From an uncultured Saprospiraceae bacterium (GTDB lineage: Bacteria; Bacteroidota; Bacteroidia; Chitinophagales; Saprospiraceae), in assembly GCA_937928045.1 (NCBI GenBank), contig CALFWO010000070.1:1-64000 (forward strand): a stretch of 64,000 nucleotides of DNA. Direction: 5' to 3'. Positions within the stretch are counted from its first letter, which is position 1; the number at the start of each line of letters is the position of its first letter. A model generated the notes under the pieces. The model was given only the letters and a program-made list of their open reading frames with translations. It was not told where the DNA came from and searched no databases. The translations under genes and the position numbers were made by a program. Shown here piece by piece: positions 1 through 61,780 of the stretch.

Positions 1-924
1 CCCGGATGTACTGAAGAAGAATGCCTTCCCATATTAGAACGACGATCTAATTTGAAGTTGTCTAACGGTGATTTTAAAATTGGTTATAGTCCAGAAAGAA
101 TTGTTCCTGGTTCAAAAACACATACGCTGACAAATATTCTAAAGATAATTTCAGGTTCAGACGATTTTGCAAGAAGTGAGATTGGAAAAGTTTACGGTGA
201 AATATTAACTGGCGGAATACACGAAGCGGCCTCAATAAAAGTTGCCGAGGCGGCCAAAGTAATTGAAAATACACAGAGGGATATTAATATATCCTTAATG
301 AATGAATTGGCAATTATTTTCGACAAAATGGATATTGATACAAATGCGGTAATCGAGGCTGCAGGAACAAAATGGAATTTTCATAAATATCAACCTGGTT
401 TGGTAGGAGGGCATTGCATTTCCGTGGATCCCTTTTATTTGATGCATAAGGCAAAACAGTTGGGACATGACCCTCAAGTTATTGCTGCAGGACGAAGAGT
501 AAATGATTACATTCCTAAGTTCATTTCCAAACGTGTTGTTCAAGCTCTGATAGAACAAGGTAAGAATCCAGGAGAATGTAAAGTTTTGGTAATGGGTATT
601 ACTTTTAAGGAAAATGTGGCAGACATCCGTAATTCCAAAGTAGCCGACTTGATAAAAGAATTAATGGAGTATTCAGTCAATGTACATACGGTTGATCCTT
701 GGGCATCTCCAAACGAAGTGGCTCATGAATATGGTATAGCTATGATTGATGAGCCTCAAGGTAAATATGATGCAGTTGTGGTAGCTGTGCCACATGAAAA
801 GTATAAGGAATACAATGAGGATTATTTTAAATCCATATTGAATGAGTCCTTTTTAATGTTTGATTTAAAAGGAATGTATGACCGAAATTCTTTTGGTGAC
901 TTTTTGACTTATTGGAAATTATAA
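1..924 (+). CDS. Nucleotide-sugar 6-dehydrogenase (UDP-HexNAc dehydrogenase, WbpO/TviB/WecC-like), 5'-truncated by window edge
   Basis: Oxidises C6 of a UDP-N-acetylhexosamine to the uronic acid using NAD. The frame is open from base 1 (it reads PGCTEEECLPILE before the first internal TTG at 52), so the true start lies outside the window and 307 residues are visible. The missing part is the N-terminal NAD-binding Rossmann domain. Visible are the central dimerisation domain, the catalytic-Cys motif GLVGGHCISVDPFYL (Cys codon 415-417), and the C-terminal UDP-binding domain with GITFKENVADIRNSK. The CISVDP form and the HKAKQLG stretch resemble TviB/WbpO more than WbpA, but substrate (GlcNAc, GalNAc or ManNAc) cannot be fixed from sequence. 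It is followed after 23 nt by the WlbA-type dehydrogenase, so the product probably feeds a di-amino uronic acid pathway. Confidence 0.93.
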   Translation, partial: PGCTEEECLPILERRSNLKLSNGDFKIGYSPERIVPGSKTHTLTNILKIISGSDDFARSEIGKVYGEILTGGIHEAASIKVAEAAKVIENTQRDINISLMNELAIIFDKMDIDTNAVIEAAGTKWNFHKYQPGLVGGHCISVDPFYLMHKAKQLGHDPQVIAAGRRVNDYIPKFISKRVVQALIEQGKNPGECKVLVMGITFKENVADIRNSKVADLIKELMEYSVNVHTVDPWASPNEVAHEYGIAMIDEPQGKYDAVVVAVPHEKYKEYNEDYFKSILNESFLMFDLKGMYDRNSFGDFLTYWKL

Positions 925-3136: not shown

Positions 3137-4129
3137 ATGAACAAAGTTAATATTTGCTTAATTGGAGGGACAGGAAGATCTGGAACAAGTATACTTAGGA
3201 AAATATTTGCGAACCATCCTAAAGTTGCTAGGGTTCCTGAATGGAGAGGGAATATAGACCCTGATGGCCCCATTGATTTTTATATATCACTTAAAAATGG
3301 ATGGTCTCCTCATTTTTTTGAAGTTAAAGTCAATCGATTAGAACGATATCTGAAAAAGTTAGGAAACTCAAATATAGTAGAAAAGGCAGTTGTCTACCTT
3401 CTACATAAAATTGGATTCAAACCAATACCGGTTTTTCCATATAAGCTTAGTAAAAGCTATGCGCTAAATGAAATTTCTAGATACTCCCCTAATTACACGC
3501 AACATTGTAATAATTTAATTGAAAATTTAGTTGATTTTTCATTTAAAGGACAATGGATTGGAACACGTATGTTTCAGCCTTCTATTCAGAAATATAGCTC
3601 AGAAAAATCTAGTACCGAACTTGCTAATATATTTGGCAAATTTTATAGGGATATAGTCAATGATATATTACAACATTCAGAGGCTGATTACTATGTTGAA
3701 GACAATACATGGAATTTTTTGTGGTTCGATTATATTTTGGAATTACTTCCAGAAGCAAAACTTGTACATATTTATAGAGATCCAAGAGATGTCGTAGCTT
3801 CCTATCGAAAACAAAGGTGGGCTCCATATTCAGTTAGGGAGAGTGCAGTTTTTTATAGAGATCTGACAAATAGATGGTGGAAAATTCGAGAAAAACTACC
3901 GAGCAATTCATTTATTGAACTGTCACTAGAAGAATTGGTTGAGAATTCCGAATCAACAATAAAGAAGATTAGTGATTTTTGGGGAATTCCGTTTGATGAG
4001 AATTTATTGAATATCGACTTGTCCAAGTCAAATAAAGATAGGTGGAAAAGAGATTTCTCAAATGATGAAAAAGAAATTTTGAATGATGTATTGAAGGATG
4101 TAATCCAAAAACTTAATTATGACAAATAG
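3137..4129 (+). CDS. Sulfotransferase family protein
   Basis: A 330-residue PAPS-dependent sulfotransferase candidate. The 5'-phosphosulfate-binding loop is GGTGRSGTS at residues 10-18, and a 3'-phosphate-binding element reads LVHIYRDPRDVVASY in the second half of the protein. There is no signal peptide, so it should act in the cytoplasm on sugar precursors or lipid-linked units. Its last 11 bases overlap the start of the next gene (ATG at 4119 inside AATTATGACAAATAG), a sign of translational coupling with the dimethylformamidase-like protein. In this context the acceptor is probably a glycan, but the position sulfated (O or N) cannot be read from sequence. Confidence 0.85.
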   Translation: MNKVNICLIGGTGRSGTSILRKIFANHPKVARVPEWRGNIDPDGPIDFYISLKNGWSPHFFEVKVNRLERYLKKLGNSNIVEKAVVYLLHKIGFKPIPVFPYKLSKSYALNEISRYSPNYTQHCNNLIENLVDFSFKGQWIGTRMFQPSIQKYSSEKSSTELANIFGKFYRDIVNDILQHSEADYYVEDNTWNFLWFDYILELLPEAKLVHIYRDPRDVVASYRKQRWAPYSVRESAVFYRDLTNRWWKIREKLPSNSFIELSLEELVENSESTIKKISDFWGIPFDENLLNIDLSKSNKDRWKRDFSNDEKEILNDVLKDVIQKLNYDK

Positions 4130-5738
4130 GTTTGAAGGTCATATATTAAGTGCGGAATTATGTAGTCCGATAAAGGATGTGCATATTTCAACTATAGATT
4201 TATATTCTGGAGAGAAAACTATAATTTCTAAATCTGACCTAAATGGTAAGTATGAGTTTTCTTGTTCCAATGATATCACAACTATATGCTTTGAGCATCC
4301 AGATTATATTTCGAAAGAAATAACGGTGGGAAATATTGCTGACATTATTCGATTATTAGAAAGAAAATTAATTGGTTATGTAGATCAGCCTAGTTATTTG
4401 CAAGGAGAAGTGGTAAAGGTTTTTGTCAGTTCTGAATACGATTTTAACTTGTCATTGTTTAGGCATGGATTAGAAAAGAAAATGATTCAGGACTATGGAA
4501 TGTTTAAAAATGGTTTTCAAAAGGTTCCAAACGCTTATTTCTGTGAACATGGTTTAGAATGGAAACAATCAGCAAGTGTTACACTGCCAGATACCTTGGA
4601 AAGTGGTATTTATAGCTTGCGAATTTCAAACGATAAAGATGTATTTGCGATTCCCTTGGTAATTAATGCAAAAAAGAATTCTGGTAAGAAAATATTGGTG
4701 CTTGCAAATATCAATACTTGGATTTCATACAATTTATGGGGAGGAAGAAGTAGATATGTTAATTACGAAAATGTAAGTTCAAGTATTAAACAGCATGGGG
4801 TAGTCAAGTCATTATTATTGAAATTATTGCCAAAATCATTTTTGACTTATATTTCTAGTAGAAATAATGAAAAGGGTAAACACCCCGATTGGATATTTAA
4901 AAAGAATAGTATTTACAAACCAGCAACGCATGCTGGATTGGAGGCTGATGATGTTAGAGAAAAATTTACAAACCATTTAGCAGGAGGAGAGTGGAGATTG
5001 TTGGCTTGGCTTGAGAGAGAGGGGTATGCGTATGATGTAGTCTCGGATTGGTATTTAGAAAATAGTGAGATATCCTTTGAGGATTATGAATGTGTTATAA
5101 CATCTACTCATGCAGAGTATTGGACGAAAAAGTTATTTCATAAGCTTAAGGATGCCCATGAAAACAAGAAGGTGTCAATTCTGAATCTTTCAGGAAATAC
5201 TTGTTATTCCGAAGTAGTCATTGATAAAGATTCATTGCAACTTAAGGGCTTCTTTTTTCATAAATCTTGCTTTGATGAGTCAAAGCTATTTGGAGTGAGG
5301 TGGAATCCATATTCATATGCTACTGCAGCACCTTATAAAAAGAGAATGAAAGAGCATTGGTCTTTAGAAGGAGTAAAAGGTGAATTGATAGGTGAACATT
5401 GTCTAAATGTTGATACTAAAGAAGAATCAAAGTTCTATCATCACGGAAGAATGCAGAATGGCAATAGACTAAAAGGTGTCGGTGCCTCCGGTTGGGAATC
5501 GGACTGTATTACATCTACTGCTGGCGATGAATTTAAAATAATTGCAAAAGGACTAAATAGAGGAGGAGGGAGTGATATGGTTATAAGAGAGTCAAAGAGG
5601 GAAAGAGGCGGTTATTTCTCAGCTTCTTCGATTTTATTTACTGGCTCCTTATTGGTGGATGACAATTGTAATCAAATAGTGAACAATGTGCTAAAGAGGT
5701 TTTTAGGAGTAAGGAACGAAAAGAAAATTTTGGATTAA
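4119..5738 (+). CDS. N,N-dimethylformamidase beta-subunit-like amidohydrolase with N-terminal beta-sandwich domain
   Basis: A 539-residue protein. Residues ~1-75 look like a carboxypeptidase-regulatory-like beta sandwich (GHILSAEL to PDYISKEI). From about residue 190 it matches the DMFase large-subunit C-terminal family, including VLANINTWISYNLWGG. Candidate metal ligands in the DMFase order (Tyr, Tyr, Glu) are Tyr334 in HAEYW, Tyr363 in SGNTCYS and Glu460 in SGWESD. No signal peptide is visible. DMFases hydrolyse a small amide; here, inside a polysaccharide operon and overlapping a sulfotransferase, a plausible role is hydrolysis of an N-acyl group on a sugar. That role is inference; the fold assignment is moderately firm. 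Confidence 0.72.
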   Translation: MTNRFEGHILSAELCSPIKDVHISTIDLYSGEKTIISKSDLNGKYEFSCSNDITTICFEHPDYISKEITVGNIADIIRLLERKLIGYVDQPSYLQGEVVKVFVSSEYDFNLSLFRHGLEKKMIQDYGMFKNGFQKVPNAYFCEHGLEWKQSASVTLPDTLESGIYSLRISNDKDVFAIPLVINAKKNSGKKILVLANINTWISYNLWGGRSRYVNYENVSSSIKQHGVVKSLLLKLLPKSFLTYISSRNNEKGKHPDWIFKKNSIYKPATHAGLEADDVREKFTNHLAGGEWRLLAWLEREGYAYDVVSDWYLENSEISFEDYECVITSTHAEYWTKKLFHKLKDAHENKKVSILNLSGNTCYSEVVIDKDSLQLKGFFFHKSCFDESKLFGVRWNPYSYATAAPYKKRMKEHWSLEGVKGELIGEHCLNVDTKEESKFYHHGRMQNGNRLKGVGASGWESDCITSTAGDEFKIIAKGLNRGGGSDMVIRESKRERGGYFSASSILFTGSLLVDDNCNQIVNNVLKRFLGVRNEKKILD

Positions 5739-5756
5739 GATTAAGACCAATTAGAT

Positions 5757-7070
5757 TTGACTCTTATTATTCTGCTGGTTTCGATTATTTCTTTGTTCTA
5801 TGCAATTATTTGGTGTAGACAAGGCTTTTCTAATCCGTTGTTTCTGTATCTGTTGTTTAATCTGATTAATTTTTATGGAACTTTACCTCTGCTAGATTTA
5901 GGTGAGCCTGCTGATTTAGCACATTTTAGAATTTTATACTTCGGTATTTTTTCCATTATTTTTGGTGGTTTATTAGGGGCATATATATTTAATCTGGATG
6001 ATAAAACAATTTTAAACTGGACAAATAAAAACATAGTTGTGGAGTCTGGGTTTTCCACAGATTTTGTATTGTATTCAATTGTTGCTGTTTCTATTGTAGT
6101 TGGTTCATTATATTATTATTCAGTAGGGTATAATATTATTCTATTAGGGATTATGAATTTAGCAGGTTATGGACCAGATATAGAATCAGTATCTACATTA
6201 AGATTAGCGAGTTATAATCAATTTGTTGGAGGGAAGTATTTTTATCCGGGATATGTGAATCAATTTAAGAATACACTATTTCCTATATGCTTGGGATTTT
6301 TAGTCCTAAGAAGTCATTTTTTGGGGAGGTCTATTCACCCTTTTCATATTGTTCTTTCCATTATTTGTGTAGTTTTTCTTTTAGGAACGGGACAAAGAGG
6401 AGCTTTTGTAATAGCCAGTCTAATGGTTGGACTGTCCTATTTCGTAATAGCAGATAAAAAGGAAAGGAAAAAAATTATGGGATTTGGATCTCTATTTGTA
6501 TTGTTTTTCTTTTTCATTTCATCATTTATTATTGGTAGAAATGAAAGCGATGGAGAAGGAGTTGGAGATAACATCAAAGGTTTAGGGGTCGCAACTGTTG
6601 AAAGAATTACTTCGGCTAATCAAAATGGAGCGGCTGTTGGATTTAGAGAATTAATATATCATCGACCGATTCAATGGGGGAAAGAATGGGGGCAGGATAT
6701 TTTGGGAGTGTTGCCGGGCCACAGCGGTAGTTCTTTATCAGGAGAAGTAGGGAAAATTTTGTGGGGAGGTGATGGGAAAAGAGGAACGGCTCCACCTTCA
6801 AATTGGACATCAATCTATCATAACTTTGGATATCTTGGTGTCATTTCATTACCGATAATTATTTCATTTCTTTTAAGTTTTTTACGGAAGAGGTATTACA
6901 CAGGTGAAAAAGCGTTGTTAAGAACAATTTGTTATTTTTCAAATTTTGTTTTATTGGCGAGTTGGATATCTGGCTCACCTTTGCGACTCTTTAATGTGGG
7001 TATGGTTGCAGTAATTGTGCTGTACTATCTGATAACGGGAATGCGGCAATTTCTAATTAAGTCAAATTAA
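5757..7070 (+). CDS. wzy: Oligosaccharide repeat-unit polymerase (Wzy-like membrane protein)
   Basis: A 437-residue inner-membrane protein with about 10-12 hydrophobic helices and a large polar loop at residues ~265-360 (GRNESDGEG to SNWTSIYHNFGYLGV), the layout of O-antigen/EPS polymerases. The PSNWTSIYHNFG element is like the second periplasmic loop of Wzy-type proteins. TTG 5757 is the start because no ATG or GTG occurs before the first membrane helix. It lies 18 nt after the amidohydrolase. Wzy proteins diverge strongly, so the call rests on topology plus position next to wzx. Confidence 0.72.
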   Translation: MTLIILLVSIISLFYAIIWCRQGFSNPLFLYLLFNLINFYGTLPLLDLGEPADLAHFRILYFGIFSIIFGGLLGAYIFNLDDKTILNWTNKNIVVESGFSTDFVLYSIVAVSIVVGSLYYYSVGYNIILLGIMNLAGYGPDIESVSTLRLASYNQFVGGKYFYPGYVNQFKNTLFPICLGFLVLRSHFLGRSIHPFHIVLSIICVVFLLGTGQRGAFVIASLMVGLSYFVIADKKERKKIMGFGSLFVLFFFFISSFIIGRNESDGEGVGDNIKGLGVATVERITSANQNGAAVGFRELIYHRPIQWGKEWGQDILGVLPGHSGSSLSGEVGKILWGGDGKRGTAPPSNWTSIYHNFGYLGVISLPIIISFLLSFLRKRYYTGEKALLRTICYFSNFVLLASWISGSPLRLFNVGMVAVIVLYYLITGMRQFLIKSN

Positions 7071-7080
7071 TTCTTGTAAT

Positions 7081-8478
7081 TTGGAACAATCTAAAATTCT
7101 ACTCTACAAGACTTTCCAATTTATTGCTGTTATTAGTATTCTATTAATTTGTGCTTGTAATAGAAATTTGAAAATTGACAAAGAGAATATTTCTGTACGG
7201 GATTTCGGGATTAAAATATCCAAAGACATAGATCAAACCAGGCTTATTCAGAAAGCATTGAATGCTACCTCTTCAAAGGGCAAGACGCTTTTCTTTCCTA
7301 AAGGTAATTATTACATAAGTGGTCGAATTCAAATCCCTTCAGGAACTTCAATTAGAGGAGAGGATGGAGAGGCCAGAATTATTCAAAGATCAAAGAATAC
7401 GACAATTTTTTATGCAAATAAAGTTCAAGAAATTGAGATTCTTGGAATGGAATTTATGGGGGAGGGAACTTATTCAACGGAGTGGACAGAAGCAAGTTCT
7501 CATCAAGATAGAGGAGTTAGTTTTTTCTATTCGAGTAAAATAAAAATTGGAAATTGTAAATTCCTAAATCATGGTTTAGCTGGTTTGTTTTTTACCAATT
7601 GTAGTAGTGTTACCATTGAAGATTGCAAAATTGAAGGTACACATAAGTATTCTTCTCCGCTGAAGCATAAAGATAATTTTCAATTTGGAATTTGTTTCGT
7701 TGTCTCTGAACCTTTTAAAGCGGTTGGGAGGAATGAAATTTTGAACAATGAAATCTCATTCGTTAATCAAGGGGTTATTCTTACGCAAGGCAAATCTGTT
7801 GCCCAGGAATTAACTACTGATATAATTGGAAATGATGTTCACGATATAATTGGACAACATGGATTGTATATTTCTATGTCAAATGTGAATATAGATTCAA
7901 ATACAATTTCAAAGGTTGGGCTTGAAGGAATAAAGATACAAGCTAGCAAAACATCCTTAAATGGGTTTAAACTGAAAAATAATAAGGCTAAGGATTGCTT
8001 GAATAGTCAAGCATATAATTTGACTGTAGTAAATAAAAATTTCAAATTATCTAACATTGAAATTTCCAACTGTTCAGCAGTGAATTGTAAACGCGGTTTA
8101 AATATTAGTAACTGGGTGGAAAATCTTTCGGTGAACACTTTTGAGGTAGATAATGCTACCCAATATGGGATATTGCTACAAGGGAGCAAAATGAGGGGGC
8201 TCGATTTTAAAGAGGTTCGAATTAATAACCCTCAAAAACAGGCTATTCTGGTTAATGCTAAAGATTTGACCGATGTGAGATTTTTCAATACAGAAATAGA
8301 AAAAGAAACAATTTCAAGAAAAGGAATGATTCAATTTTCAAGCGATAATGACATTAGATTCAATGGTGTTTATGTTAAATGTAAATCGTGCGCTGAGAAA
8401 GAATTTGTGAAAATTGAAGGAAGAGGGGGAAGTGTAAATGGTATTCAAAATCTGGTATTTAAAAATTCGAAAAACTAG
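7081..8478 (+). CDS. Right-handed beta-helix lipoprotein (pectate-lyase-like fold)
   Basis: A 465-residue predicted lipoprotein. The signal peptide ends in a lipobox-like LICAC with Cys26 as the acylation site. The mature part opens with a pectate_lyase_3-type segment (VRDFGIKISKDIDQTRLIQKAL, then GKTLFFPKGNYYIS) and continues as repeated short beta-strand coils rich in Asn and Ser (NCKFLNHG, NCSSVTIEDCKIEG, NNEISFVNQG). TTG 7081 is the only start that keeps the signal peptide. It is likely periplasmic or outer-membrane-attached and may bind, cleave or epimerise the polymer made by this operon. Catalytic residues are not identifiable. Confidence 0.75.
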   Translation: MEQSKILLYKTFQFIAVISILLICACNRNLKIDKENISVRDFGIKISKDIDQTRLIQKALNATSSKGKTLFFPKGNYYISGRIQIPSGTSIRGEDGEARIIQRSKNTTIFYANKVQEIEILGMEFMGEGTYSTEWTEASSHQDRGVSFFYSSKIKIGNCKFLNHGLAGLFFTNCSSVTIEDCKIEGTHKYSSPLKHKDNFQFGICFVVSEPFKAVGRNEILNNEISFVNQGVILTQGKSVAQELTTDIIGNDVHDIIGQHGLYISMSNVNIDSNTISKVGLEGIKIQASKTSLNGFKLKNNKAKDCLNSQAYNLTVVNKNFKLSNIEISNCSAVNCKRGLNISNWVENLSVNTFEVDNATQYGILLQGSKMRGLDFKEVRINNPQKQAILVNAKDLTDVRFFNTEIEKETISRKGMIQFSSDNDIRFNGVYVKCKSCAEKEFVKIEGRGGSVNGIQNLVFKNSKN

Positions 8479-13629: not shown

Positions 13630-15540
13630 TTGGTTGGAAAAATAAAAATGCTTACTCAGGTTTTGAAAAATCAAGGCCCAAGGTATGTGGCATTCAGAGC
13701 TTGGTATGAGTTGCGCCGAAAGCGAGGTTGGTTGAAAAATGATTTTCCGACAGCACCGGAGCAACATCAATTTATTAGCTTGGAAGCATGGAAACAAAAG
13801 AATATTCCTTTCTTCTTTCAATCAAAATTGGCATTAACTTTTCAGAAGACAAAGCATGCTGATCTTCAAGAACGATTTGATAAAATTGCCCAAGGAGAGG
13901 TATTGCTTTTTAATGCAAGTTGGAAAAAACTAGGAAAACAGTACGATTGGATTACCAACCCAGATTCTGGTTTTCGATACGACATTAGTCAACATTGGTC
14001 GCTGGTTGAAGATATTTCCAAAGAAGCAGGAGACATTAAATTCGTCTGGGAGAAATCCCGATTCTCTTATTTATACGATATCATTCGCCACGATTATCAT
14101 TATGAACAGGACCATGCGGAACTAGTTTTTTCGGAGATTGAAAATTGGATAGCGGCCAATCCCATTAATCTTGGTCCTAATTATAAATGTTCTCAGGAAA
14201 TTTCATTGCGCTGTCTAAATTGGACCTTTGCACTTTATTATTATCGAGATTCAGTTGGTTTGACTGAAGCACGTTTCCAGCGTATAATGCATGCGCTATA
14301 TTGGCAAATTCGTCATGTCTATAGTAATATTAATTTCTCCAGAATATGTGTTCGGAATAACCATGCGATTACCGAAACGATGATGCTTTATCTGGGAGGA
14401 ATGCTCTTTCCTTTTTTCCCAGAAGCAGCTCAATGGAAAAAGGACGGTAAAAAATGGTGGGAGGAAGAGATCGCTTACCAAGTTTATGAGGATGGTACCT
14501 TTTTACAATTTTCTCACAATTACCAAAGGGTGCTGGTACAATTATTAACTTGGGGAATCACTTTAAGTGAATTGCATCAGGAAACACTTACTTCAACGAC
14601 CATTTCCAGAGCGAGCAGTGTAGTGAGCTATTTGTATAATTGTTGTGTGGGGAAAAATGGAGAATTGCCGAACTATGGGAATAATGATGGTGCCTTGTTT
14701 TTTAAACTGAACAGTCAGTTGTATCCAGATTTTCGACCTCAATTGAATGCATTGGCCTTCAGTATTAATAAAGAATATTTATTCTCAGACAATTGGTTGA
14801 CTGAGGATATACATTGGATGCAAAGCAAGGTCACAGATAAAAAAAACGGTTCAATAGATAAAACTGTAACAATTGCAAAAAAGTATGACCAAGGTGGAAT
14901 ATTGACTTTATCTACAAGTGATAACAGCTTTACCTTTTTTAAATGTACAGCGTACAAAGATCGCCCTTCGCAAGCAGATAATCTTCATGTAGATATTTGG
15001 TGGAGGGGAAAAAATTATTTTCGCGACGCTGGGATATATAAATATAATACTACGGAACAAGACATAAATTTTTTTGCTGGAACATTGGGGCATAATACCT
15101 TAATATTAAGTAATAAAAATCAAATGAAAAAAGGTCCTCGATTCATTTGGTACAACTGGACAAAAAATACAGCGTCTTCAATAGAAGAAAACGCCGAAGA
15201 ATATATCCTGACAGCTTGGGCAGAAATGTTCCCAGAATTAGGTGCCAATGTGAAGCATACACGGACCATTAGGAAAAATAAATTGAAGCCAATCTGGACC
15301 ATAGTTGATCGCATTGAAAATTTACCGACCAATGTTCAAGTCCACCAACTGTGGCACCCCAATCCTAATTTAATTCCACAAGTGAAAATTACAGCTACAG
15401 ACAACAACGGTCAGCAACTGCAATTAGAAACTAAAGGAGGATATTTTTCAGATCATTACGGTGAAAAAGAAGCGGCTCCAACTTGGTCCTTTACGACAGT
15501 TAATCCTACTATACAAACAGAAATTCAACTACTACCTTGA
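13630..15540 (+). CDS. Heparinase II/III-family protein (alginate-lyase-like)
   Basis: A 636-residue protein with an N-terminal alpha/alpha-toroid-like half (WTFALYYYRDS, CVRNNHAITETMMLYLGGM, ISLRCLNW) and a C-terminal beta-sandwich Heparinase_II_III half (DNLHVDIWWRGKNYFRDAG, GTLGHNTLILSNKNQ). The NNHAITE motif carries the Asn/His residues typical of the family's active site. No clear signal peptide is present, so cytoplasmic action or non-classical export must be allowed. TTG 13630 is given; ATG 13648 is an equally good start. It overlaps the next gene by 4 nt. In EPS loci such proteins are often thought to trim or modify the polymer. Confidence 0.87.
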   Translation: MVGKIKMLTQVLKNQGPRYVAFRAWYELRRKRGWLKNDFPTAPEQHQFISLEAWKQKNIPFFFQSKLALTFQKTKHADLQERFDKIAQGEVLLFNASWKKLGKQYDWITNPDSGFRYDISQHWSLVEDISKEAGDIKFVWEKSRFSYLYDIIRHDYHYEQDHAELVFSEIENWIAANPINLGPNYKCSQEISLRCLNWTFALYYYRDSVGLTEARFQRIMHALYWQIRHVYSNINFSRICVRNNHAITETMMLYLGGMLFPFFPEAAQWKKDGKKWWEEEIAYQVYEDGTFLQFSHNYQRVLVQLLTWGITLSELHQETLTSTTISRASSVVSYLYNCCVGKNGELPNYGNNDGALFFKLNSQLYPDFRPQLNALAFSINKEYLFSDNWLTEDIHWMQSKVTDKKNGSIDKTVTIAKKYDQGGILTLSTSDNSFTFFKCTAYKDRPSQADNLHVDIWWRGKNYFRDAGIYKYNTTEQDINFFAGTLGHNTLILSNKNQMKKGPRFIWYNWTKNTASSIEENAEEYILTAWAEMFPELGANVKHTRTIRKNKLKPIWTIVDRIENLPTNVQVHQLWHPNPNLIPQVKITATDNNGQQLQLETKGGYFSDHYGEKEAAPTWSFTTVNPTIQTEIQLLP

Positions 15541-16793: not shown

Positions 16794-17420
16794 ATGAAGG
16801 ACAAAATATATATTGTAGGTACTGGAGGATTTGCTTGTGAAGTCCTATGTCTTATTGATGATTTAGGAGATTATGAAAGAGTCGCTGGCTTTTTAGAACT
16901 AGATGATATTTGGAAAGATAAATGGCAAGGGAAAAATTTGATGGGAAAAGAAATAGTTCCTTTTTCTTCTTTTCAACCTGATTTGGGATTAGTTTCTATT
17001 GGAATTGGTGATCCGAAAATTAGAGAGAAAACAGTAGGGCAACTTCCTGAGAATACTAAATTTATCTCACTTATTCATCCTAGGGCCTTAGTTTCAAGAT
17101 GGGTAAAGTTGGGAGTTGGAGCTGTAGTTACCGCAGGTTGCGTATTAACCTCTAATATAGAAATAGGCGATCATGTGCATTTAAATTTGGATACCACTAT
17201 AGGTCATGATTGTAAAATTGGAAATTTTTTTACAACCGCTCCTTCTGTTAATGTTAGTGGAAATTGTACTATTTCAAATCGAGTTTATTTAGGAACTGGT
17301 TCTGCAACACGTCAAGGATTAACCATTACAAATGATGTAGTGCTTGGAATGGGTGCAATGGCTGTAAAAGACATGAAGGAGCCCGGTATATATGTGGGCA
17401 TCCCCGCAAAAAAAAGATAG
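16794..17420 (+). CDS. Sugar O/N-acetyltransferase, NeuD/PglD family (left-handed beta-helix)
   Basis: A 208-residue protein with a short N-terminal PglD-type substrate-binding domain (IYIVGTGGFACEVLCLI) followed by hexapeptide repeats (VKLGVGAVVTAGCVLTSN, IEIGDHVHLNLDTTIGHD, CTISNRVYLGTGS). The catalytic His is likely the one in IGHDCKIG. It sits immediately before an aminotransferase and a 4,6-dehydratase, the gene set that makes UDP-di-N-acetylbacillosamine or related 2,4-diamino sugars. N-acetylation of a UDP-4-amino sugar is the most likely reaction; O-acetylation is the alternative. Confidence 0.87.
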   Translation: MKDKIYIVGTGGFACEVLCLIDDLGDYERVAGFLELDDIWKDKWQGKNLMGKEIVPFSSFQPDLGLVSIGIGDPKIREKTVGQLPENTKFISLIHPRALVSRWVKLGVGAVVTAGCVLTSNIEIGDHVHLNLDTTIGHDCKIGNFFTTAPSVNVSGNCTISNRVYLGTGSATRQGLTITNDVVLGMGAMAVKDMKEPGIYVGIPAKKR

Positions 17421-17443
17421 TAAATCAAGCAAAATAATCTATA

Positions 17444-18601
17444 ATGATCCCTCTTTCTATCCCACACCTAGCAGGCAACGAATGGAAATACGTAAAAGAC
17501 TGCCTAGACACCGGTTGGGTATCCTCAGTTGGTGCATACGTTACCCAATTTGAAAAAATGGTAGCCAAATTTGCCGGTGCTAACTACGGCATCGCCTGCA
17601 TGAACGGAACTGCCGCCTTACACATCGGACAAATACTTTTAGGAGTAGAAAAAGATGATCATGTCATCACCCCAAATATAACATTCGTCGCCACCCTGAA
17701 TGCTATTAAGTATACTGGAGCAAAACCAATTTTAATTGATGTGAATCCAACCAATTGGCAAATGGATTTGGAGGTATTTGAACAATTCCTTGAGCAGGAA
17801 ACCTACCTAGAAAAAATAAATATAGACGGTGACTCGCAATTTTTTTCCCATTATAAAAAAACAAAAAAACCGATCAAGGCCATCATGCCAGTGCATGTCC
17901 TTGGAAATATTGGCGACATGGATCGGTTGGTGAGTATTTGTAAAAAATACCACATTGGAATTATCGAAGATAGCACAGAGGCTTTAGGTTCATATTACAA
18001 AGGGAGGCATGCCGGGACTTTTGGAAAGATTGGGACCTTTAGTTTCAATGGAAATAAAATTATTTCTACTGGCGGTGGTGGAGTGATTGTAACCGACGAT
18101 GAAGCATTGGCCAAAAGAGCAAAACATATAACCACTACGGCTAAGGCTAGTCCGATGGAATATTTCCACGATGAAACGGGATACAACTACAGATTAGTAA
18201 ATATCTTAGCAGCGGTGGGTGTTGCACAGATGGAACAGTTGCCAGACTTTATATTGAATAAAAAAGCGATGGATGCTTTTTACCGAAAAGAATTGGATGG
18301 AGTAGGGGATATTCAATTTCAAGAAGTGAGCAAGAATGTTGATCCGAATTGTTGGTTATTCACTTTTCGCACAAAAAGGATGAGAGAACTGTTGACTTTT
18401 CTAAATGAAAATGGTGTTCAATCTCGACCATTTTGGGTACCAATGAATCGCTTGCCGATGCATGGTGGATATGATTTTATCTCTAATAATGATCAATCCA
18501 ATGAAGTGTATGAATCGGCTTTGAGTATTCCTAGTTCTTCTGGTCTTACACAAGAACAATTGCAAACTGTGGTAGATACGATCAAGTCATTTTATAATTA
18601 A
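17444..18601 (+). CDS. PLP-dependent sugar aminotransferase, DegT/LegC/PglE family
   Basis: A 385-residue DegT/DnrJ/EryC1/StrS-fold enzyme that transfers an amino group to a keto-sugar nucleotide. The start IPLSIPHLAGNEWKYVKDCL is characteristic of the LegC subfamily; GTAALHIGQ, EDSTEALGSYYKG and the PLP-lysine motif SFNGNKIISTGGGG are present. Partner of the downstream 4,6-dehydratase, whose 4-keto product it would aminate. No legionaminate synthase (NeuB/LegI) is in the window, so a bacillosamine-type product is favoured. The first ~270 bp use C-ending codons much more than the rest of the gene, a mosaic pattern. Confidence 0.9.
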   Translation: MIPLSIPHLAGNEWKYVKDCLDTGWVSSVGAYVTQFEKMVAKFAGANYGIACMNGTAALHIGQILLGVEKDDHVITPNITFVATLNAIKYTGAKPILIDVNPTNWQMDLEVFEQFLEQETYLEKINIDGDSQFFSHYKKTKKPIKAIMPVHVLGNIGDMDRLVSICKKYHIGIIEDSTEALGSYYKGRHAGTFGKIGTFSFNGNKIISTGGGGVIVTDDEALAKRAKHITTTAKASPMEYFHDETGYNYRLVNILAAVGVAQMEQLPDFILNKKAMDAFYRKELDGVGDIQFQEVSKNVDPNCWLFTFRTKRMRELLTFLNENGVQSRPFWVPMNRLPMHGGYDFISNNDQSNEVYESALSIPSSSGLTQEQLQTVVDTIKSFYN

Positions 18602-18621
18602 TATAACTTCAAAAAAAATAG

Positions 18622-19833
18622 ATGTTATTCGATTTAGAAAAATTTATAGCTGACAAAGTTACCAAACGCTCTAGTTCTTTCTTTCAAAAAGATATCGAAG
18701 CGAATTCACAAACTCTTCGAGAAAGAATTGCGGGAAAGTCTGTTCTTGTGATAGGCGGAGCTGGTACAATTGGTTCAAGTTATATTAAAGCGGTTTTAAA
18801 ATTTAATCCTGGAAGATTGTTTGTAGTTGATACCAATGAGAATGGATTGACAGAATTGACCAGAGATTTGAGGTCGAATGAAGATCTGCAAGTTCCTGAG
18901 GATTACAAAACTTATCCGTTAGATTTTGCACATCCTGTTTTTGAAAAAATACTAAAGAAGGAAGGACCTTTTCATATCGTCGCTAACTTTGCCGCCCATA
19001 AGCATGTGCGATCGGAAAAAGATCAGTACTCTGTAGAGGCAATGATTGACAATAATGTTTTTAAAGCAAAGACACTTTTAGATCAGTTATCCATTCATAA
19101 GCCAGAGCGCTTTTTCTGTGTTTCGACAGATAAAGCTGCCAACCCAGTGAATGTGATGGGGGCAAGTAAAAAACTTATGGAGGAAGTGATCATGAGTTAT
19201 GCGAATGACATTCCGATTACAACTGCTAGATTTGCGAATGTGGCTTTTTCAAATGGCTCTCTTTTATTTGGCTATATGGAAAGATTGCTGAAAAAGCAAC
19301 CACTTTCTTGTCCATCAGATGTGAAGCGGTATTTTGTTTCTCCTGAGGAATCTGGCCAGATTTGTATGTTGGCTTGTATGCTTGGAAGTCCTGGGGAGAT
19401 ATTTTTCCCGAAATTTGAAGAAGAGAAATTGACTTTGTTCAAGGATATTACTGACGATTTTATTCCTGCTCAAGGATTTATAGTAGATCTTTGTACTAGC
19501 GAAGCAGAAGCAAAGACAAAGGCAAAAAACTTAAGATCAGGGAGTACAGCTTATCCAGTATATTACTTTCCTACAGATACTTCAGGGGAAAAGCTTTTCG
19601 AAGAGTTTTATACAAATGACGATATTGTTGATAGAGATAGTTTCCAAGGTTTAGGAGTAATAAAAAACGCTCCCATTAACCGAAAAGAAGAAGTAGGGCG
19701 AATGATTCAGGATTTGAAGGCTGTAGTTGGACGAGAGTCTTATAATAAATCCGATATAGTTGCAGCGATGAAAGCTTTTCTTCCTAATTTTGCGCACATC
19801 GAAACAGGAAAAAGCCTGGATCAGAAAATGTAA
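18622..19833 (+). CDS. UDP-N-acetylglucosamine 4,6-dehydratase, soluble extended-SDR type (PglF/LegB-like)
   Basis: A 403-residue NAD-dependent short-chain dehydrogenase/reductase. The NAD loop is VIGGAGTIGSSYI, and the active-site stretch is VSTDKAANPVNVMGASKK, where Met replaces the usual Tyr of YxxxK, as in PglF/FlaA1 dehydratases. The protein has a longer C-terminal part than FlaA1 and no membrane helices. It supplies UDP-4-keto-6-deoxy-GlcNAc to the aminotransferase 20 nt upstream. It precedes the phosphoglycosyl transferase gene by 2 nt. Confidence 0.9.
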   Translation: MLFDLEKFIADKVTKRSSSFFQKDIEANSQTLRERIAGKSVLVIGGAGTIGSSYIKAVLKFNPGRLFVVDTNENGLTELTRDLRSNEDLQVPEDYKTYPLDFAHPVFEKILKKEGPFHIVANFAAHKHVRSEKDQYSVEAMIDNNVFKAKTLLDQLSIHKPERFFCVSTDKAANPVNVMGASKKLMEEVIMSYANDIPITTARFANVAFSNGSLLFGYMERLLKKQPLSCPSDVKRYFVSPEESGQICMLACMLGSPGEIFFPKFEEEKLTLFKDITDDFIPAQGFIVDLCTSEAEAKTKAKNLRSGSTAYPVYYFPTDTSGEKLFEEFYTNDDIVDRDSFQGLGVIKNAPINRKEEVGRMIQDLKAVVGRESYNKSDIVAAMKAFLPNFAHIETGKSLDQKM

Positions 19834-19835
19834 AT

Positions 19836-20507
19836 ATGTATCAAGTCGTAAAGCGATTTTTTGATTTTATATCATCTCTAATAGCCTTAGTTATCTTGTC
19901 TCCTTTGATTATTCCTATTGTGATTGGTTTAAAGCTCACAGGAGAGGGGTATATCTGGTATTTTCAGGAACGTGTCGGTAAAAACAATAAACTATTCAAC
20001 ATTTGGAAATTTGCCACCATGTTGAAAGACTCAGTCAATATGAAGGGCGGGCTGATAACAACAAAAAAAGATCCGCGCATCACGCCGATGGGAGGTTTTT
20101 TAAGAACTTCAAAAATCAATGAATTGCCGCAATTGATAAATATCTTAAAGGGTGATATGTCAGTTGTTGGACCTCGTCCAGTGATGCAAAAGAGTTTTGA
20201 TGCCTATCCTGAGGATGTCCAAAAAGTGATTTTCAATGTTAGACCAGGGTTGACTGGGATCGGATCAATAATATTTAGAGACGAAGAAACTTTGATTACT
20301 GAAGTAAGAGATGCTGGTGGAGATACTTGGGACTTTTATAAGAACAAAATTTATCCTTTTAAGGGAAAGACAGAACAATGGTACCAGAAAAACCAATCGT
20401 TTTTGACTGATTTTAAAATTATCATCATTACAGCTTGGGTAGTATTCTTTCCTGATAGTAATATCGTTTACTCATGGTTTCCAACACTTCCAAAGCGACC
20501 TTTTTAA
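19836..20507 (+). CDS. Initiating phosphoglycosyl transferase (bacterial sugar transferase, PglC/WcaJ-type)
   Basis: A 223-residue monotopic membrane enzyme that transfers a sugar-1-phosphate to undecaprenyl phosphate. It has one N-terminal re-entrant hydrophobic segment, the pattern LKGDMSVVGPRPV, and an Arg-Pro-Gly-Leu-Thr-Gly element (VRPGLTGIGS). The expected catalytic Asp-Glu pair appears altered: the family DE in a KxDELPQ-type motif reads SKINELPQLINIL here, keeping Glu but with Asn in place of Asp. Position after the 4,6-dehydratase/aminotransferase/acetyltransferase genes suggests a diacetamido-trideoxyhexose-1-phosphate donor. Confidence 0.88.
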   Translation: MYQVVKRFFDFISSLIALVILSPLIIPIVIGLKLTGEGYIWYFQERVGKNNKLFNIWKFATMLKDSVNMKGGLITTKKDPRITPMGGFLRTSKINELPQLINILKGDMSVVGPRPVMQKSFDAYPEDVQKVIFNVRPGLTGIGSIIFRDEETLITEVRDAGGDTWDFYKNKIYPFKGKTEQWYQKNQSFLTDFKIIIITAWVVFFPDSNIVYSWFPTLPKRPF

Positions 20508-20508
20508 T

Positions 20509-21600
20509 ATGACAAAAATAGACATCATAGCCGGCGCCCGTCCGAACTTCATGAAAATCGGACCGATCATTCATGCCATTCTTAAATATAACGAGACGGC
20601 AGCTGAAAAAATTGACTACCGTTTGATTCATACCGGACAACACTACGACAAAAAAATGTCCGAAGATTTCTTTGAGCAATTAAATATTCCTAAACCACAT
20701 TTAAACCTCGGAGTGGGATCTGGAACTCAGGCTACCCAAACGGCTAACATAATGATGCGCTACGAGGAGGCAGTGAAGGAAAGTAAACCGGAGCTGTGTA
20801 TCGTAGTTGGGGATGTTACTTCTACAATGGCATGCTCGATTGTTGCTAAAAAGGAAGGCGTGAAGGTGGCTCATGTCGAGGGTGGAATTCGTTCTGGAGA
20901 TGAAGGAATGCCAGAAGAAATTAATCGAATGGTTACAGACAGTATTACAGATTATTTCTTCACCACTTCCGCAGTAGCAAACAAGAATCTAGAATTTCTT
21001 GGACACAAACCAGAAAAGGTTTTCTTCGTTGGTAATACAATGATTGATTCTTTACTTGGCAACCTTGAGCGTCTTCAACAACCAGCGATTTGGAGAGAAA
21101 ATAATCTTAAAGAAAAGGAATATTTAGTAATGACCTTGCATCGCCCTTCAAATGTTGATGCTATGGAAGATTTGCGGAAACTGTTAGAGATTATTAATAC
21201 CAATGTTGATAATAAAAAGGTTGTTTTCCCTATGCATCCTCGGACAAAAAAGATGTATGATCAACTAGGTATGAATTTCGAAAATTTATTAATCACTGGT
21301 CCGATGTCTTATTTGGAGTTCATTTATTTGGTGAAGAATGCTTTGGGTATGATTACCGATTCTGGTGGAATTACAGAAGAGACTACAGTCCTAGGAGTAC
21401 CATGTATGACTTTGAGAAACTCGACTGAGCGTCCAGAAACTGTAACCATTGGAACCAATGAAATTGTTGGAACAAATCCAGTAAACATTATGCCCTATTT
21501 AAATATGCTTATTTCTGGGAAATGGAAGCAAGGCGGAATTCCAGAACTCTGGGATGGTAAAACTGCCGATCGAATTGTGAAAATTGTAGCAGGCTTATAA
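20509..21600 (+). CDS. wecB: UDP-N-acetylglucosamine 2-epimerase, non-hydrolysing type (WecB/WbpI family)
   Basis: A 363-residue GT-B-fold epimerase. It opens with IIAGARPNFMKIGPII and has HTGQHYDKKMSEDFF, HVEGGIRSGDEGMPEE and SGGITEETTVLGVPC, the family's conserved substrate-binding and catalytic stretches. It converts UDP-GlcNAc to UDP-ManNAc, or a 2,3-diacetamido uronic acid to its epimer if it is WbpI-like; sequence alone does not settle which. It begins one nucleotide after the phosphoglycosyl transferase stop codon. Together with gene 1 it could supply a ManNAc-uronic acid. Confidence 0.92.
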   Translation: MTKIDIIAGARPNFMKIGPIIHAILKYNETAAEKIDYRLIHTGQHYDKKMSEDFFEQLNIPKPHLNLGVGSGTQATQTANIMMRYEEAVKESKPELCIVVGDVTSTMACSIVAKKEGVKVAHVEGGIRSGDEGMPEEINRMVTDSITDYFFTTSAVANKNLEFLGHKPEKVFFVGNTMIDSLLGNLERLQQPAIWRENNLKEKEYLVMTLHRPSNVDAMEDLRKLLEIINTNVDNKKVVFPMHPRTKKMYDQLGMNFENLLITGPMSYLEFIYLVKNALGMITDSGGITEETTVLGVPCMTLRNSTERPETVTIGTNEIVGTNPVNIMPYLNMLISGKWKQGGIPELWDGKTADRIVKIVAGL

Positions 21601-53737: not shown

Positions 53738-53790
53738 TTAGGTGATTGAGAGACGGTTTTTTTACTATAAAAATTGTAATTTGCGGCTCG

Positions 53791-54978
53791 ATGAACACGC
53801 AAGACCGATTGTCAAAAGGTAGGAAAATTGCACTGGTAGCTAATTCCACTTGGAATATCTACAATTTCCGATTAAATCTGATTCAATATCTAGAGGATCA
53901 CAATTGTGAAGTAGTGGTAATCGCGCCGGTGGATGAGTATATTCGATACCTGAATAAAGCTCATAAAATCAAGCATATTCCCTTAAAAGGTCTTAAGAGA
54001 AAAGGGAAGAATCCATTTCACGATATTCGACTTACTCTAAATCTGGCTAGGATCTACCACAAAGAAAAGCCTGATGCTATAATCCATTATACTATTAAGC
54101 CCAATATTTATGGGAATCTGGCTGCCAAATGGTGTAACATTCCAAGTATTTGTGTGGTGACAGGTTTAGGCTATACCTTTTTGCACCAAGGAATTTCGAA
54201 CAAGATTTCTAATTGGTTGTACAAATTATCCTTCAGGTATAGTCAGAAGGTTGCTTTTGAAAATAGCGATGACAAAGATCTTTTCATTGAAATGGACTTA
54301 GCAAGCGCTGAAAAGTGCGCAGTAATAAATGGTTGTGGAATCGATACCAATTTTTTTAAACCCGAAAAGAAGAAGTCTGTCTTTGCAAGAAAGTTCTTAT
54401 TTATTGGAAGGTTGCTTTATGATAAGGGAATTGTCGAATTTGTTCAAGCGGCAAAGGAAGTTAGAGCCATTTATCCAGAGGTCGAATTTCAAGTTTTGGG
54501 AGAGCTAGATGCTGGAAATCCTAGTGCTTTGGACAAAGATCGATTGTTGAAATGGGTGGATAATAAAGTTATCAACTATTTGGGAACCACTCCAGATGTA
54601 CGAACTTATATTCAAAAGGCTGATGTCATTGTGTTGACTTCTTATCGGGAAGGATTGTCCAAGGTTTTAATGGAGGGATTGGCTATGGGCAAGCCTATTA
54701 TTACGACAGATACTCCGGGCTGTAGGCAAACTGTAGATCATGGTAGAAATGGATATTTGGTGCCAGTGAAATCTGTGGACGCTGTTGTTAAAGCTTGTAA
54801 GGATTTGATAAATATGACAGCGATCGATCTAGAGATCATGGGTCAACTTAGCAGAAAGAAAGCAATAGAGGTTTATGACGATTCTTTAGTGGTAAAGAAA
54901 TATGGTGAGATATTGGAGGAAATTGGAATAGGACTAAGCCCATTGCTTAACGAAGTTCCAAAGGTCATTTCGAAGTAG
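53791..54978 (+). CDS. Glycosyltransferase, GT4 (PglA-like)
   Basis: A 395-residue GT-B enzyme. ATG 53791 is chosen over 53746 because the Rossmann start (KIALVANSTWNIYNFRLNLI) follows at a normal distance. Segments VVTGLGYTFLH, FIGRLLYDKGIVEFVQA and SYREGLSKVLMEGLAMGKPI, the last with the E-x7-E motif, are like PglA-type enzymes that act on lipid-linked diNAcBac. It could therefore follow the initiation module of the first cluster; that link is inference. It is 19 nt before the sulfotransferase. Confidence 0.88.
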   Translation: MNTQDRLSKGRKIALVANSTWNIYNFRLNLIQYLEDHNCEVVVIAPVDEYIRYLNKAHKIKHIPLKGLKRKGKNPFHDIRLTLNLARIYHKEKPDAIIHYTIKPNIYGNLAAKWCNIPSICVVTGLGYTFLHQGISNKISNWLYKLSFRYSQKVAFENSDDKDLFIEMDLASAEKCAVINGCGIDTNFFKPEKKKSVFARKFLFIGRLLYDKGIVEFVQAAKEVRAIYPEVEFQVLGELDAGNPSALDKDRLLKWVDNKVINYLGTTPDVRTYIQKADVIVLTSYREGLSKVLMEGLAMGKPIITTDTPGCRQTVDHGRNGYLVPVKSVDAVVKACKDLINMTAIDLEIMGQLSRKKAIEVYDDSLVVKKYGEILEEIGIGLSPLLNEVPKVISK

Positions 54979-54997
54979 AAAAGTTTAATTCGTTTTT

Positions 54998-55771
54998 TTG
55001 AACAAAAAAATCATTTACATCGGTGGCTATGGATGGAGTGGGTCGACATTGCTGTCCAGACTTTTGATGCTACTTCCAAAGGTGATCAGCCTAGGTGAAT
55101 TTCATAATATCAAAGAGGATTTTAAAAACAACGATAAATGTTCCTGTGGTGAACACGTTAGTAGTTGTTTCTTTTGGAAGGCTCCATTTCAAAAATTTCA
55201 ACAAGGTGTAGTAGAAGAAAAAGATTTATTTGATCAATTGCATTTCGATCAGCCCAATACCATTTTTATAGACGCTTCTAAAACCACCTTTTCAAATTTT
55301 CAAAGACCATTTAAATTGGCGGAAGCGTATGACGTTTTATTTATCCATTTAGTAAGAGATGGATTTTCAGTGCTAGGTTCTAATTTGAAACGAAAGCCTA
55401 GAAATTTATTTTGGAATTCTATGGTAACTGCTATTCATTGGAAATTGGCGAATTATTTTTCCGAAAGATTTAAATTGAAATATAGAGACAGGTATTTATT
55501 AGTTAAATATGAAGAACTGATTCATGATCCAACTACACTGTTGAAGAAAGTTGCCAAAGCATTGGATTTGAAAATTTCAGATGAATTAAATGGTTTCTGT
55601 ATGCTGCCATTAGGGCATCAGATTTCTGGAAATAATATTCGATTCGAAAAGGAATTAAAAGTTGAAAAAAGAATCTCAAATACGGATGAACTTCCGAGGG
55701 TAGGAAAATGGGTCTTTAGTTTTTTTAGCGGATCGATGGTCAAACGTTATTATCCTTCTGGAAATAGTTAA
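54998..55771 (+). CDS. Sulfotransferase family protein
   Basis: A 257-residue PAPS-dependent sulfotransferase candidate. The 5'-phosphosulfate loop is GGYGWSGSTLL (residues 9-19) and a 3'-phosphate-binding element reads IHLVRDGFSVLGSNLKR. TTG 54998 is the start: no other start gives the loop at its normal distance from the N-terminus. A Cys-rich patch (CSCGEHVSSCFFW) is typical of some bacterial members. Its 3' end overlaps the convergent GT-like gene by 32 nt. Confidence 0.83.
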   Translation: MNKKIIYIGGYGWSGSTLLSRLLMLLPKVISLGEFHNIKEDFKNNDKCSCGEHVSSCFFWKAPFQKFQQGVVEEKDLFDQLHFDQPNTIFIDASKTTFSNFQRPFKLAEAYDVLFIHLVRDGFSVLGSNLKRKPRNLFWNSMVTAIHWKLANYFSERFKLKYRDRYLLVKYEELIHDPTTLLKKVAKALDLKISDELNGFCMLPLGHQISGNNIRFEKELKVEKRISNTDELPRVGKWVFSFFSGSMVKRYYPSGNS

Positions 55772-56855
55772 TAACAGGAAGCATTGTTTTTTCCCAGCTT
55801 AAATTTTTCTTGGCGTAGCTTTTAATGAGACTTGTGTTGTTTTTAAAATTCTTAGAAAGTAGCAAGTTAATATCAATTGGGTTTTCAGATTCTTCGAGAT
55901 TAATGATGCCTTCGCATCCAGGAATAAACCCGGGATCGACTCCTGCGTAAAAGAAATTCAATCCTCGTGCCGCATACTCTCGATGCTTTAATGATTGATT
56001 GATGATAACTCCTTTGCGATGAATTCCTAGCGTTCCAACTCCACAATTTGCCCAGTCGTAATGTTGATCAAGTTCCAACTTAGAAAGTGGTGGGTAAAAG
56101 GAAAACATTGAATCAATGTTTAATTCTTTGCACAATTTTTTAGATTCTTCCCAGCCATTTCCAATTATTCTAACTTCGATTTTTGTGTCGCCTTTATAAT
56201 TTTGAATGCCATAAATCAATCGATCTATTCCGTGCCAGTAATTAAAATTACCTACTGCAATAAGCTGAAGCTTTTTCCAGTCTGTGTTGTTGGAAGAAGC
56301 AGGGAACAATTCTTCGTTAATCCCATTGCCTATTTGTAAAACTGCTGTATCGTATATTTCTTTTGCTGTTCCCAAGTGCGCAATTCTATCAATAAGGTTA
56401 AATATTTTTTTACGATAGTAAATGTCAAATTTCAATTCTATTTTTTGAGGAATACTTTTGTATTCCTGTTCATATGGGTAGGTAGGGAAATCCGCAACAA
56501 TTTTAGTATTTGGGTTCTTTATTTTGAAGGCTTGTAGAAATTGCAAAAGTGCTTTGGAACTCAAACAGTATCTGAAATATAAAAAGTCATAATTACTGAG
56601 GTCGCAAGTTTCGGAAATAATCTTCCCCAAGTCAAACATGTACAACTTGGCCAGATAGGAACGTTGTTCTATTTTTGCGGGATCAATAGTGTATATTCTT
56701 TTTTGGTTAAGATATAATCCATCCTCTAAAAAATATAAGAAATCAAAGTCATTGCATGCTTCTTTTAATACGAGAAGTTGTCCTTGACATTTCAAAAAAA
56801 TTCCGCCGTTCGCTGGCTTAGAAAAATTCACACGTGCAAATAGTAAACCTCTCAT
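55740..56855 (-). CDS. Glycosyltransferase-like protein (GT-B, GT4-type C-terminal half)
   Basis: A 371-residue protein. ATG 56855 (MRGLLFARVNFSKPANGGIF) is preferred; the upstream extension to 56960 lies inside the neighbouring gene. The opening with PANGGI and the later IAVGNFNYWHGIDRLIYGI and GNGWEESKKLCKEL resemble GT4 enzymes, though the terminal acidic motif is less clear (KHREYAARGLNFFY). It lies 4 nt after the FemAB-like gene and is probably co-transcribed with it. Sugar unknown. Confidence 0.7.
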   Translation of the reverse strand: MRGLLFARVNFSKPANGGIFLKCQGQLLVLKEACNDFDFLYFLEDGLYLNQKRIYTIDPAKIEQRSYLAKLYMFDLGKIISETCDLSNYDFLYFRYCLSSKALLQFLQAFKIKNPNTKIVADFPTYPYEQEYKSIPQKIELKFDIYYRKKIFNLIDRIAHLGTAKEIYDTAVLQIGNGINEELFPASSNNTDWKKLQLIAVGNFNYWHGIDRLIYGIQNYKGDTKIEVRIIGNGWEESKKLCKELNIDSMFSFYPPLSKLELDQHYDWANCGVGTLGIHRKGVIINQSLKHREYAARGLNFFYAGVDPGFIPGCEGIINLEESENPIDINLLLSKNFKNNTSLIKSYAKKNLSWEKTMLPVINYFQKDNNV

Positions 56856-56859
56856 ATTA

Positions 56860-57795: not shown

Positions 57796-57828
57796 AATTA
57801 CATTTTGCCGAGGAACTAAGATATATAT

Positions 57829-59622: not shown

Positions 59623-59639
59623 TTAAATGCTTTCTGGTA

Positions 59640-61729: not shown

Positions 61730-61780
61730 ATAATTTGAATCTATATTTTTATTTTCTCTTGTTGCCTAAATTTTTGGTAA

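Follow-up and report, generated by a model that had tools for sequence, protein, structure and literature searches.

A recurrent overlapping sulfotransferase and dimethylformamidase-like gene pair in bacterial capsule loci: a possible two-protein N-deacylase/N-sulfotransferase

We asked whether two overlapping genes in the capsule locus of an uncultured Saprospiraceae bacterium might act together on one amino sugar, one product hydrolysing an amide and the other sulfating the amine that is set free. The window, that is the whole stretch of 64,000 nucleotides that was analysed, contains the two genes near its start:

3137..4129, plus strand: gene A, PAPS-dependent sulfotransferase (Sulfotransfer_3), 330 aa, intact ORF
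4119..5738, plus strand: gene B, dimethylformamidase-beta-like amide hydrolase (DMFA2_C), 539 aa, intact ORF
4119..4129, plus strand: 11-bp start/stop overlap of genes A and B, read from the sequence

The 11-bp overlap described in an earlier note on this DNA was confirmed in the sequence at 4119-4129. NCBIfam has no named family for gene A or gene B, and gene B is the only DMFA2_C gene detected in the source genome. Neither product has an apparent signal peptide on reading of the sequence, and that of gene A is probably cytosolic. The pair is flanked by a Wzx flippase upstream and a weakly matching Wzy-like polymerase downstream.

The earlier note had made its proposal of a joint function hinge on the two genes staying together elsewhere, and they did: gene B lies directly downstream in six of the six sampled genomes that hold a close gene-A homologue (39-46% identity), and these genomes span three phyla. 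They comprise the window, L054, L129, G596 (with two copies, L143 and L144), L156 and L157. Profile scanning of genome contigs with gene-B relatives turned up four close relatives of nearly full length (37-42% identity) and one partial one (40%); in L054 (candidate division GN15) and L129 (gammaproteobacterium G399) a gene-A homologue (E about 1e-91) stands directly upstream of gene B. Scans with gene A added G596, from the family of G399, as well as G956 and G1159, the latter two with gene B directly downstream; within the order of G956 this search covered four genomes. The two pair loci of G596 are near-identical, and gene B is broken by insertion sequences in both. The coding overlap between A and B was 11 bp in the window, 8 bp in L054, 8 bp in L129, 4 bp in L144, 11 or 17 bp in L156 and 8 or 23 bp in L157, the alternatives in the last two depending on the start codon chosen. 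No fusion of A and B was found; they are separate genes in all six genomes. The association is asymmetric. Among the sampled genomes every close sulfotransferase had the hydrolase beside it, while the hydrolase sometimes occurred without the sulfotransferase, as in L052, L053 and L055, whose close gene-B relatives fall in the same well-supported clade.

Since DMFA2_C relatives are rare (21 of the 395 genomes of the class), the adjacency expected by chance is low, about 1 in 100,000 per sulfotransferase by our estimate, which assumes about 4,000 genes per genome. The recurrence of the pair exceeds chance. Pairwise identities of A and B across the six genomes gave a correlation of r = 0.19, which is uninformative at n=6. 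No other close gene B was found in 199 genomes of the bacterium's own family, which suggests that the pair probably moves by horizontal transfer. No gene-A homologue was present in viral contigs, phages or plasmids, so that no link to a mobile element was found; viral contigs likewise held no close gene B, and the plasmid matches of gene B were distant.

We then considered what each product is likely to do. Gene B matched PF20254 (DMFA2_C) in Pfam with 131.9 bits (E 5e-38) against a cut-off of 27, which places it in that family. Its domains are an N-terminal beta domain (residues about 1-75), a domain resembling DMFase domain I (85-182) and a catalytic domain (190-530). The AlphaFold model (pLDDT 90.2, pTM 0.90) found strong PDB matches only in dimethylformamidase (DMFase) and N-acetyl-(R)-beta-phenylalanine acylase (E 1e-19 to 1e-23); these two enzymes fill its top nine PDB matches, and their catalytic fold is that of the modelled catalytic domain. 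In DMFase the iron ligands are Y399, Y440 and E521, and H519 is essential (PMC7686228). The register was fixed by the letters of PDB 6lvb at 395, 399, 440, 519, 521 and 547, which agree with the residues given in that paper. Alignment with PDB 6lvb placed DMFase position 395, Y399, Y440, H519, E521 and position 547 at gene B T200, Y204, Y213, H331, E333 and N360, and the corresponding codons are:

4728..4757, plus strand: gene B codons 204-213, with both tyrosine ligands of the iron, Y204 (DMFase Y399) and Y213 (DMFase Y440); motif TWxxYNxWGGRSRY, from the alignment with PDB 6lvb
5109..5120, plus strand: gene B codons 331-334 (HAEY), with H331 (catalytic H519) and E333 (ligand E521), from the alignment

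The two-tyrosine, one-glutamate ligand set of a mononuclear iron and the catalytic histidine that characterize the DMFA2_C family are both found in the gene B sequence, and the predicted dimethylformamidase metal site is fully kept. Y204, Y213, H331 and E333 are invariant in 57 diverse DMFA2_C family sequences, which argues for retained catalysis by gene B. A Tyr/Tyr/Glu site had been claimed before, with Tyr334, Tyr363 and Glu460 as the ligands. An intact site is indeed present, at Y204/Y213/E333 plus H331, but the positions had been wrongly named; the disrupted site that would have spoken against the proposal was not seen, since every DMFase ligand aligns to gene B. The alignment to PDB 6lvb rules out Y334/Y363/E460 as metal ligands: Y334 adjoins E333, several relatives have W or A at the position of Y363, and E460, though conserved, belongs to another motif.

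Gene B is not a dimethylformamidase proper, an enzyme with a small subunit and a three-domain large subunit. The alignment lacks the middle part of the large subunit, and no ORF of at least 80 aa that might encode a DmfA1A2-type small subunit lies beside gene B. The large subunit DmfA2 (PDB 6lvb, 6lvd, 6lve) shares its catalytic fold and all metal-site residues with gene B at about 13% identity in structural alignment; a DMFase middle part of ~200 residues finds no counterpart in the alignment, and gene B differs further in its added N-terminal beta domain, the absence of an adjacent small-subunit gene and its setting in a capsule operon. The best match in both sequence and structure is N-acetyl-(R)-beta-phenylalanine acylase (PDB 8huy, 8i59, 8i5a), which has the conserved tyrosines, His and Glu in common with gene B and which, going by its name, hydrolyses an N-acetyl amide. 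Unlike gene B, the acylase acts on an amino acid, and no association with a sulfotransferase was found for it; identity in structural alignment is 14-16%. Small amides, and not sugars, are the substrates of the DMFA2_C members whose structures have been solved, and we found no literature characterising members of the family from carbohydrate loci.

Gene A has the marks of a PAPS-dependent sulfotransferase, namely a Pfam match to PF13469 (Sulfotransfer_3; 90.8 bits against a cut-off of 27, E 2e-25), a 5'-phosphosulfate loop (GGTGRSGTS, 10-18) and a 3'-phosphate motif (YRDPRD, 213-218). In an alignment of seven homologues, GGxGRSGT, E35/R37 and R214/S222 were invariant. E35 lies 21 residues past the loop arginine, which we take to be the spacing of the catalytic glutamate of tyrosylprotein sulfotransferases. 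The top PDB folds for the AlphaFold model (pLDDT 83.8) are sulfotransferases. The solved enzymes closest to gene A in profile and fold are TPST1/2, CurM-type domains and SULTs, all of them O-sulfating; NDST is missing from the profile matches, and NDST1 first appears at rank 32 by fold, after TPST, CurM-type and SULT structures. Since these enzymes are nearer to gene A than NDST1, its kinship as judged from sequence and model does not favour N-sulfation, and no feature of the sequence discriminates N- from O-sulfation.

The surroundings of the pair bear on what its substrate could be:

1..924, plus strand: nucleotide-sugar (uronic-acid-forming) dehydrogenase, C-terminal part (Pfam); the N-terminal part ends contig C5
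1857..3122, plus strand: Wzx-type flippase directly upstream of the pair (Pfam Polysacc_synt_3)
5757..7070, plus strand: Wzy-like polymerase gene after the pair (weak Pfam Wzy_C match, below cut-off)
13630..15540, plus strand: heparinase II/III-like protein (Pfam)
16794..21600, plus strand: N-acetyl amino-sugar genes, encoding a NeuD/PglB-family acetyltransferase, a LegC-family aminotransferase, a UDP-sugar 4,6-dehydratase-like protein, a priming sugar transferase and a WecB UDP-GlcNAc 2-epimerase (Pfam, NCBIfam)

The pair stands within a long plus-strand run of capsule genes that also includes sugar dehydrogenases and glycosyltransferases, and the uronic-acid and heparinase-like genes previously placed in the operon (1-924 and 13630-15540) do belong to this run. 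The heparinase II/III-like protein scores 44 bits against the 700 cut-off of true heparin-sulfate lyase models (HepC). Homologous flippase genes were found upstream in L054, L156 and L053 too.

At its start the window coincides with the end of contig C70, and it begins within the nucleotide-sugar dehydrogenase, in mid-operon. The ends of contigs C5 and C70 have 17 bases in common, and the protein runs on from one to the other (...YPGCTE / PGCTEEECL..., the C5 end being L162 11755-12152). Because of this 17-bp overlap and continuous reading frame, the two contigs very probably abut. Towards its end C5 has, in order, a NusG-like gene, Wzi, cysC, cysD, cysN, Wzz and the N-terminal half of the nucleotide-sugar dehydrogenase. 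Through this join PAPS synthesis belongs to the same capsule locus, with cysC-cysD-cysN about 5 kb upstream of the pair, and the only APS kinase detected in the genome is the one in the joined locus. The source genome has four further Sulfotransfer_3 genes, so PAPS need not serve gene A alone. An APS kinase also lies about 3 kb upstream of the pair in L156, where an APS kinase, a CitMHS/sulfate-symporter-type permease and a DHHA1-domain protein (4573-8049), just upstream of the pair, are possibly a set for PAPS supply and recycling.

We propose, with a confidence that stops a little short of an even chance, that A and B form a two-enzyme module that removes the N-acyl group from a capsule amino sugar and sulfates the freed amine. 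The module would be dedicated to a single amino-sugar residue in a capsule of Wzx/Wzy type. As a cytosolic iron-type amide hydrolase, gene B would take the N-acyl group, most probably N-acetyl, off an amino sugar linked to a nucleotide or lipid, and gene A would next move sulfate from PAPS, supplied by the cysD-cysN-cysC genes of the locus, onto the freed amine before Wzx flips the repeat unit. In this sequence of events we infer the N-acyl sugar substrate, the placement of sulfate on nitrogen and the order of the steps. If gene A needs the product of gene B, then the sulfotransferase should never occur without the hydrolase, as was observed. Taken together with the intact amidase site, the relative acting on an N-acetyl amide, the PAPS genes and the locus's own pathway genes for N-acetylated amino sugars, this asymmetry fits the release of an amine by the hydrolase and its sulfation by the sulfotransferase. 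Counting against the proposal are the O-sulfating activity of the nearest solved sulfotransferases, the O-sulfated capsule of Cobetia marina with the same layout of PAPS genes and sulfotransferase (PMC11766843), the small amides on which solved family members act, the poor correlation of A and B identities, and the four other Sulfotransfer_3 genes that could use PAPS. The interpretation of joint function in the earlier note is in this sense partly supported.

A related arrangement in G399 bears on the same question. This genome also has a sulfotransferase paralogue (35% identical; L145 8933-9916) that starts 1 bp after a PIG-L de-N-acetylase gene, so that here too a sulfotransferase from the wider clade of gene A has an amide hydrolase as its immediate neighbour. 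The hydrolase is of an unrelated family and comes first, and the example is a single one. A PIG-L enzyme beside the paralogous sulfotransferase is as predicted if an amine is unmasked for sulfation, at this one locus. The two genes (G399:C123, L145 8299-9916) may represent a second type of hydrolase-sulfotransferase pair.

The main rival, which we consider unlikely but of real weight, is that gene B N-deacylates one sugar, giving a free amine and a zwitterionic repeat unit, while gene A puts O-sulfate on a hydroxyl, either of that residue or of one next to it. The two would then be co-inherited since both modify the same unit, and sulfate would never be placed on nitrogen. The O-sulfating relatives of gene A, the known case of a bacterial capsule locus that combines PAPS genes with O-sulfate (PMC11766843) and the loci L052, L053 and L055, with gene B and no gene A, all agree with such a division of labour; taken alone, however, it leaves unexplained why the close sulfotransferase is never without the hydrolase and why its paralogue is paired with PIG-L. 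Cleavage of another amide by gene B (a uronamide, an aminoacyl substituent or an N-formyl group), followed by sulfation of the product or of another part of the unit, seems improbable to us. DMFase itself acts on a formamide (PMC7686228), Asn_synthase-type amidotransferases are close to the pair in L144 and L054 and to gene B in L053, and FemAB-type acyltransferases occur near gene-B relatives in L053, L055, L066 and L115, but the operon in the window has neither type near the pair, both being ~50 kb off in a separate cluster.

That gene B has lost amide hydrolysis and serves gene A as a scaffold or glycan-binding partner would agree with its extra N-terminal beta domain and with the lack of characterised family members from carbohydrate loci in the literature we found; the invariance of every ligand and of the catalytic histidine over the 57 sequences makes it quite improbable. 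Since capsule operons are in general compact and readily exchange genes, the overlap could be an ordinary operon join devoid of functional link. This explanation is already disfavoured, as the genes keep the same order, strand and overlap across six genomes from three phyla whose loci otherwise differ, and we consider it very improbable.

Returning to N-deacylation followed by N-sulfation, one of the closest known parallels is animal NDST1 (PDB 8chs, 1nst), in which N-deacetylating and N-sulfating activities are tied together in the way proposed here and whose general PAPS fold is shared by gene A. A and B differ from it as two separate proteins, with a hydrolase of unrelated family and a sulfotransferase closer to TPST/CurM/SULT; neither the bifunctional fusion nor the sequence kinship of the NDST sulfotransferase is seen. 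Because they are separate, have an unrelated hydrolase and lack close sequence kinship, the pair is best read as a split functional analogue of animal NDST and not as a member of that family. The capsule locus of Cobetia marina KMM 1449 resembles the window in having its own cysC/cysD and sulfotransferase, and differs in that its product is O-sulfated rhamnose (PMC11766843).

Our broader reading, which we advance tentatively as possible rather than probable, is that a two-protein N-deacylase/N-sulfotransferase arose in bacteria without any tie to the animal one, with an iron-tyrosinate amidase as its basis. It would make N-sulfated amino sugars on cytosolic capsule precursors, and the wider sulfotransferase clade would also have recruited PIG-L de-N-acetylases. 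Heparan sulfate and heparin have N-sulfated amino sugars as their starting mark, and NDST that is active in bacteria has been described as a bottleneck for microbial heparin production (PMC13353177). If the reading is correct, a natural bacterial pair of soluble, separate enzymes would offer a new route to N-sulfated glycans, would represent convergence with glycosaminoglycan synthesis in animals and would give the dimethylformamidase family its first glycan role, as far as could be found. We found no literature linking a DMFase-like hydrolase with a sulfotransferase, and nothing on dimethylformamidase and polysaccharide beyond an unrelated review. Even if the sulfate is on oxygen, a hydrolase-sulfotransferase module conserved in three phyla gives context to an uncharacterised branch of PF20254.

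Several other glycan neighbourhoods came to light in the survey. A second glycan cluster occupies 53746-63977 of the window, about 50 kb from the pair, and contains:

54998-55771 and 61781-62779: two further Sulfotransfer_3 genes
56860-57915: FemAB-like acyltransferase
57829-59622: Asn_synthase-type amidotransferase

A FemAB-like acyltransferase coupled to a DUF7033/polysaccharide-deacetylase-like protein recurs in L053 (7428-9770), L055 (4630-7190) and L160 (5304-7696), directly before the close gene-B relative in the first two and beside two sulfotransferase-like genes in the third. DMFA2_C proteins with an N-terminal membrane helix occur in exopolysaccharide loci of Nitrospirota and Scalindua (L066, L115 and L058), where their genes lie beside glycosyltransferases and, in two of the three loci, FemAB-like genes.
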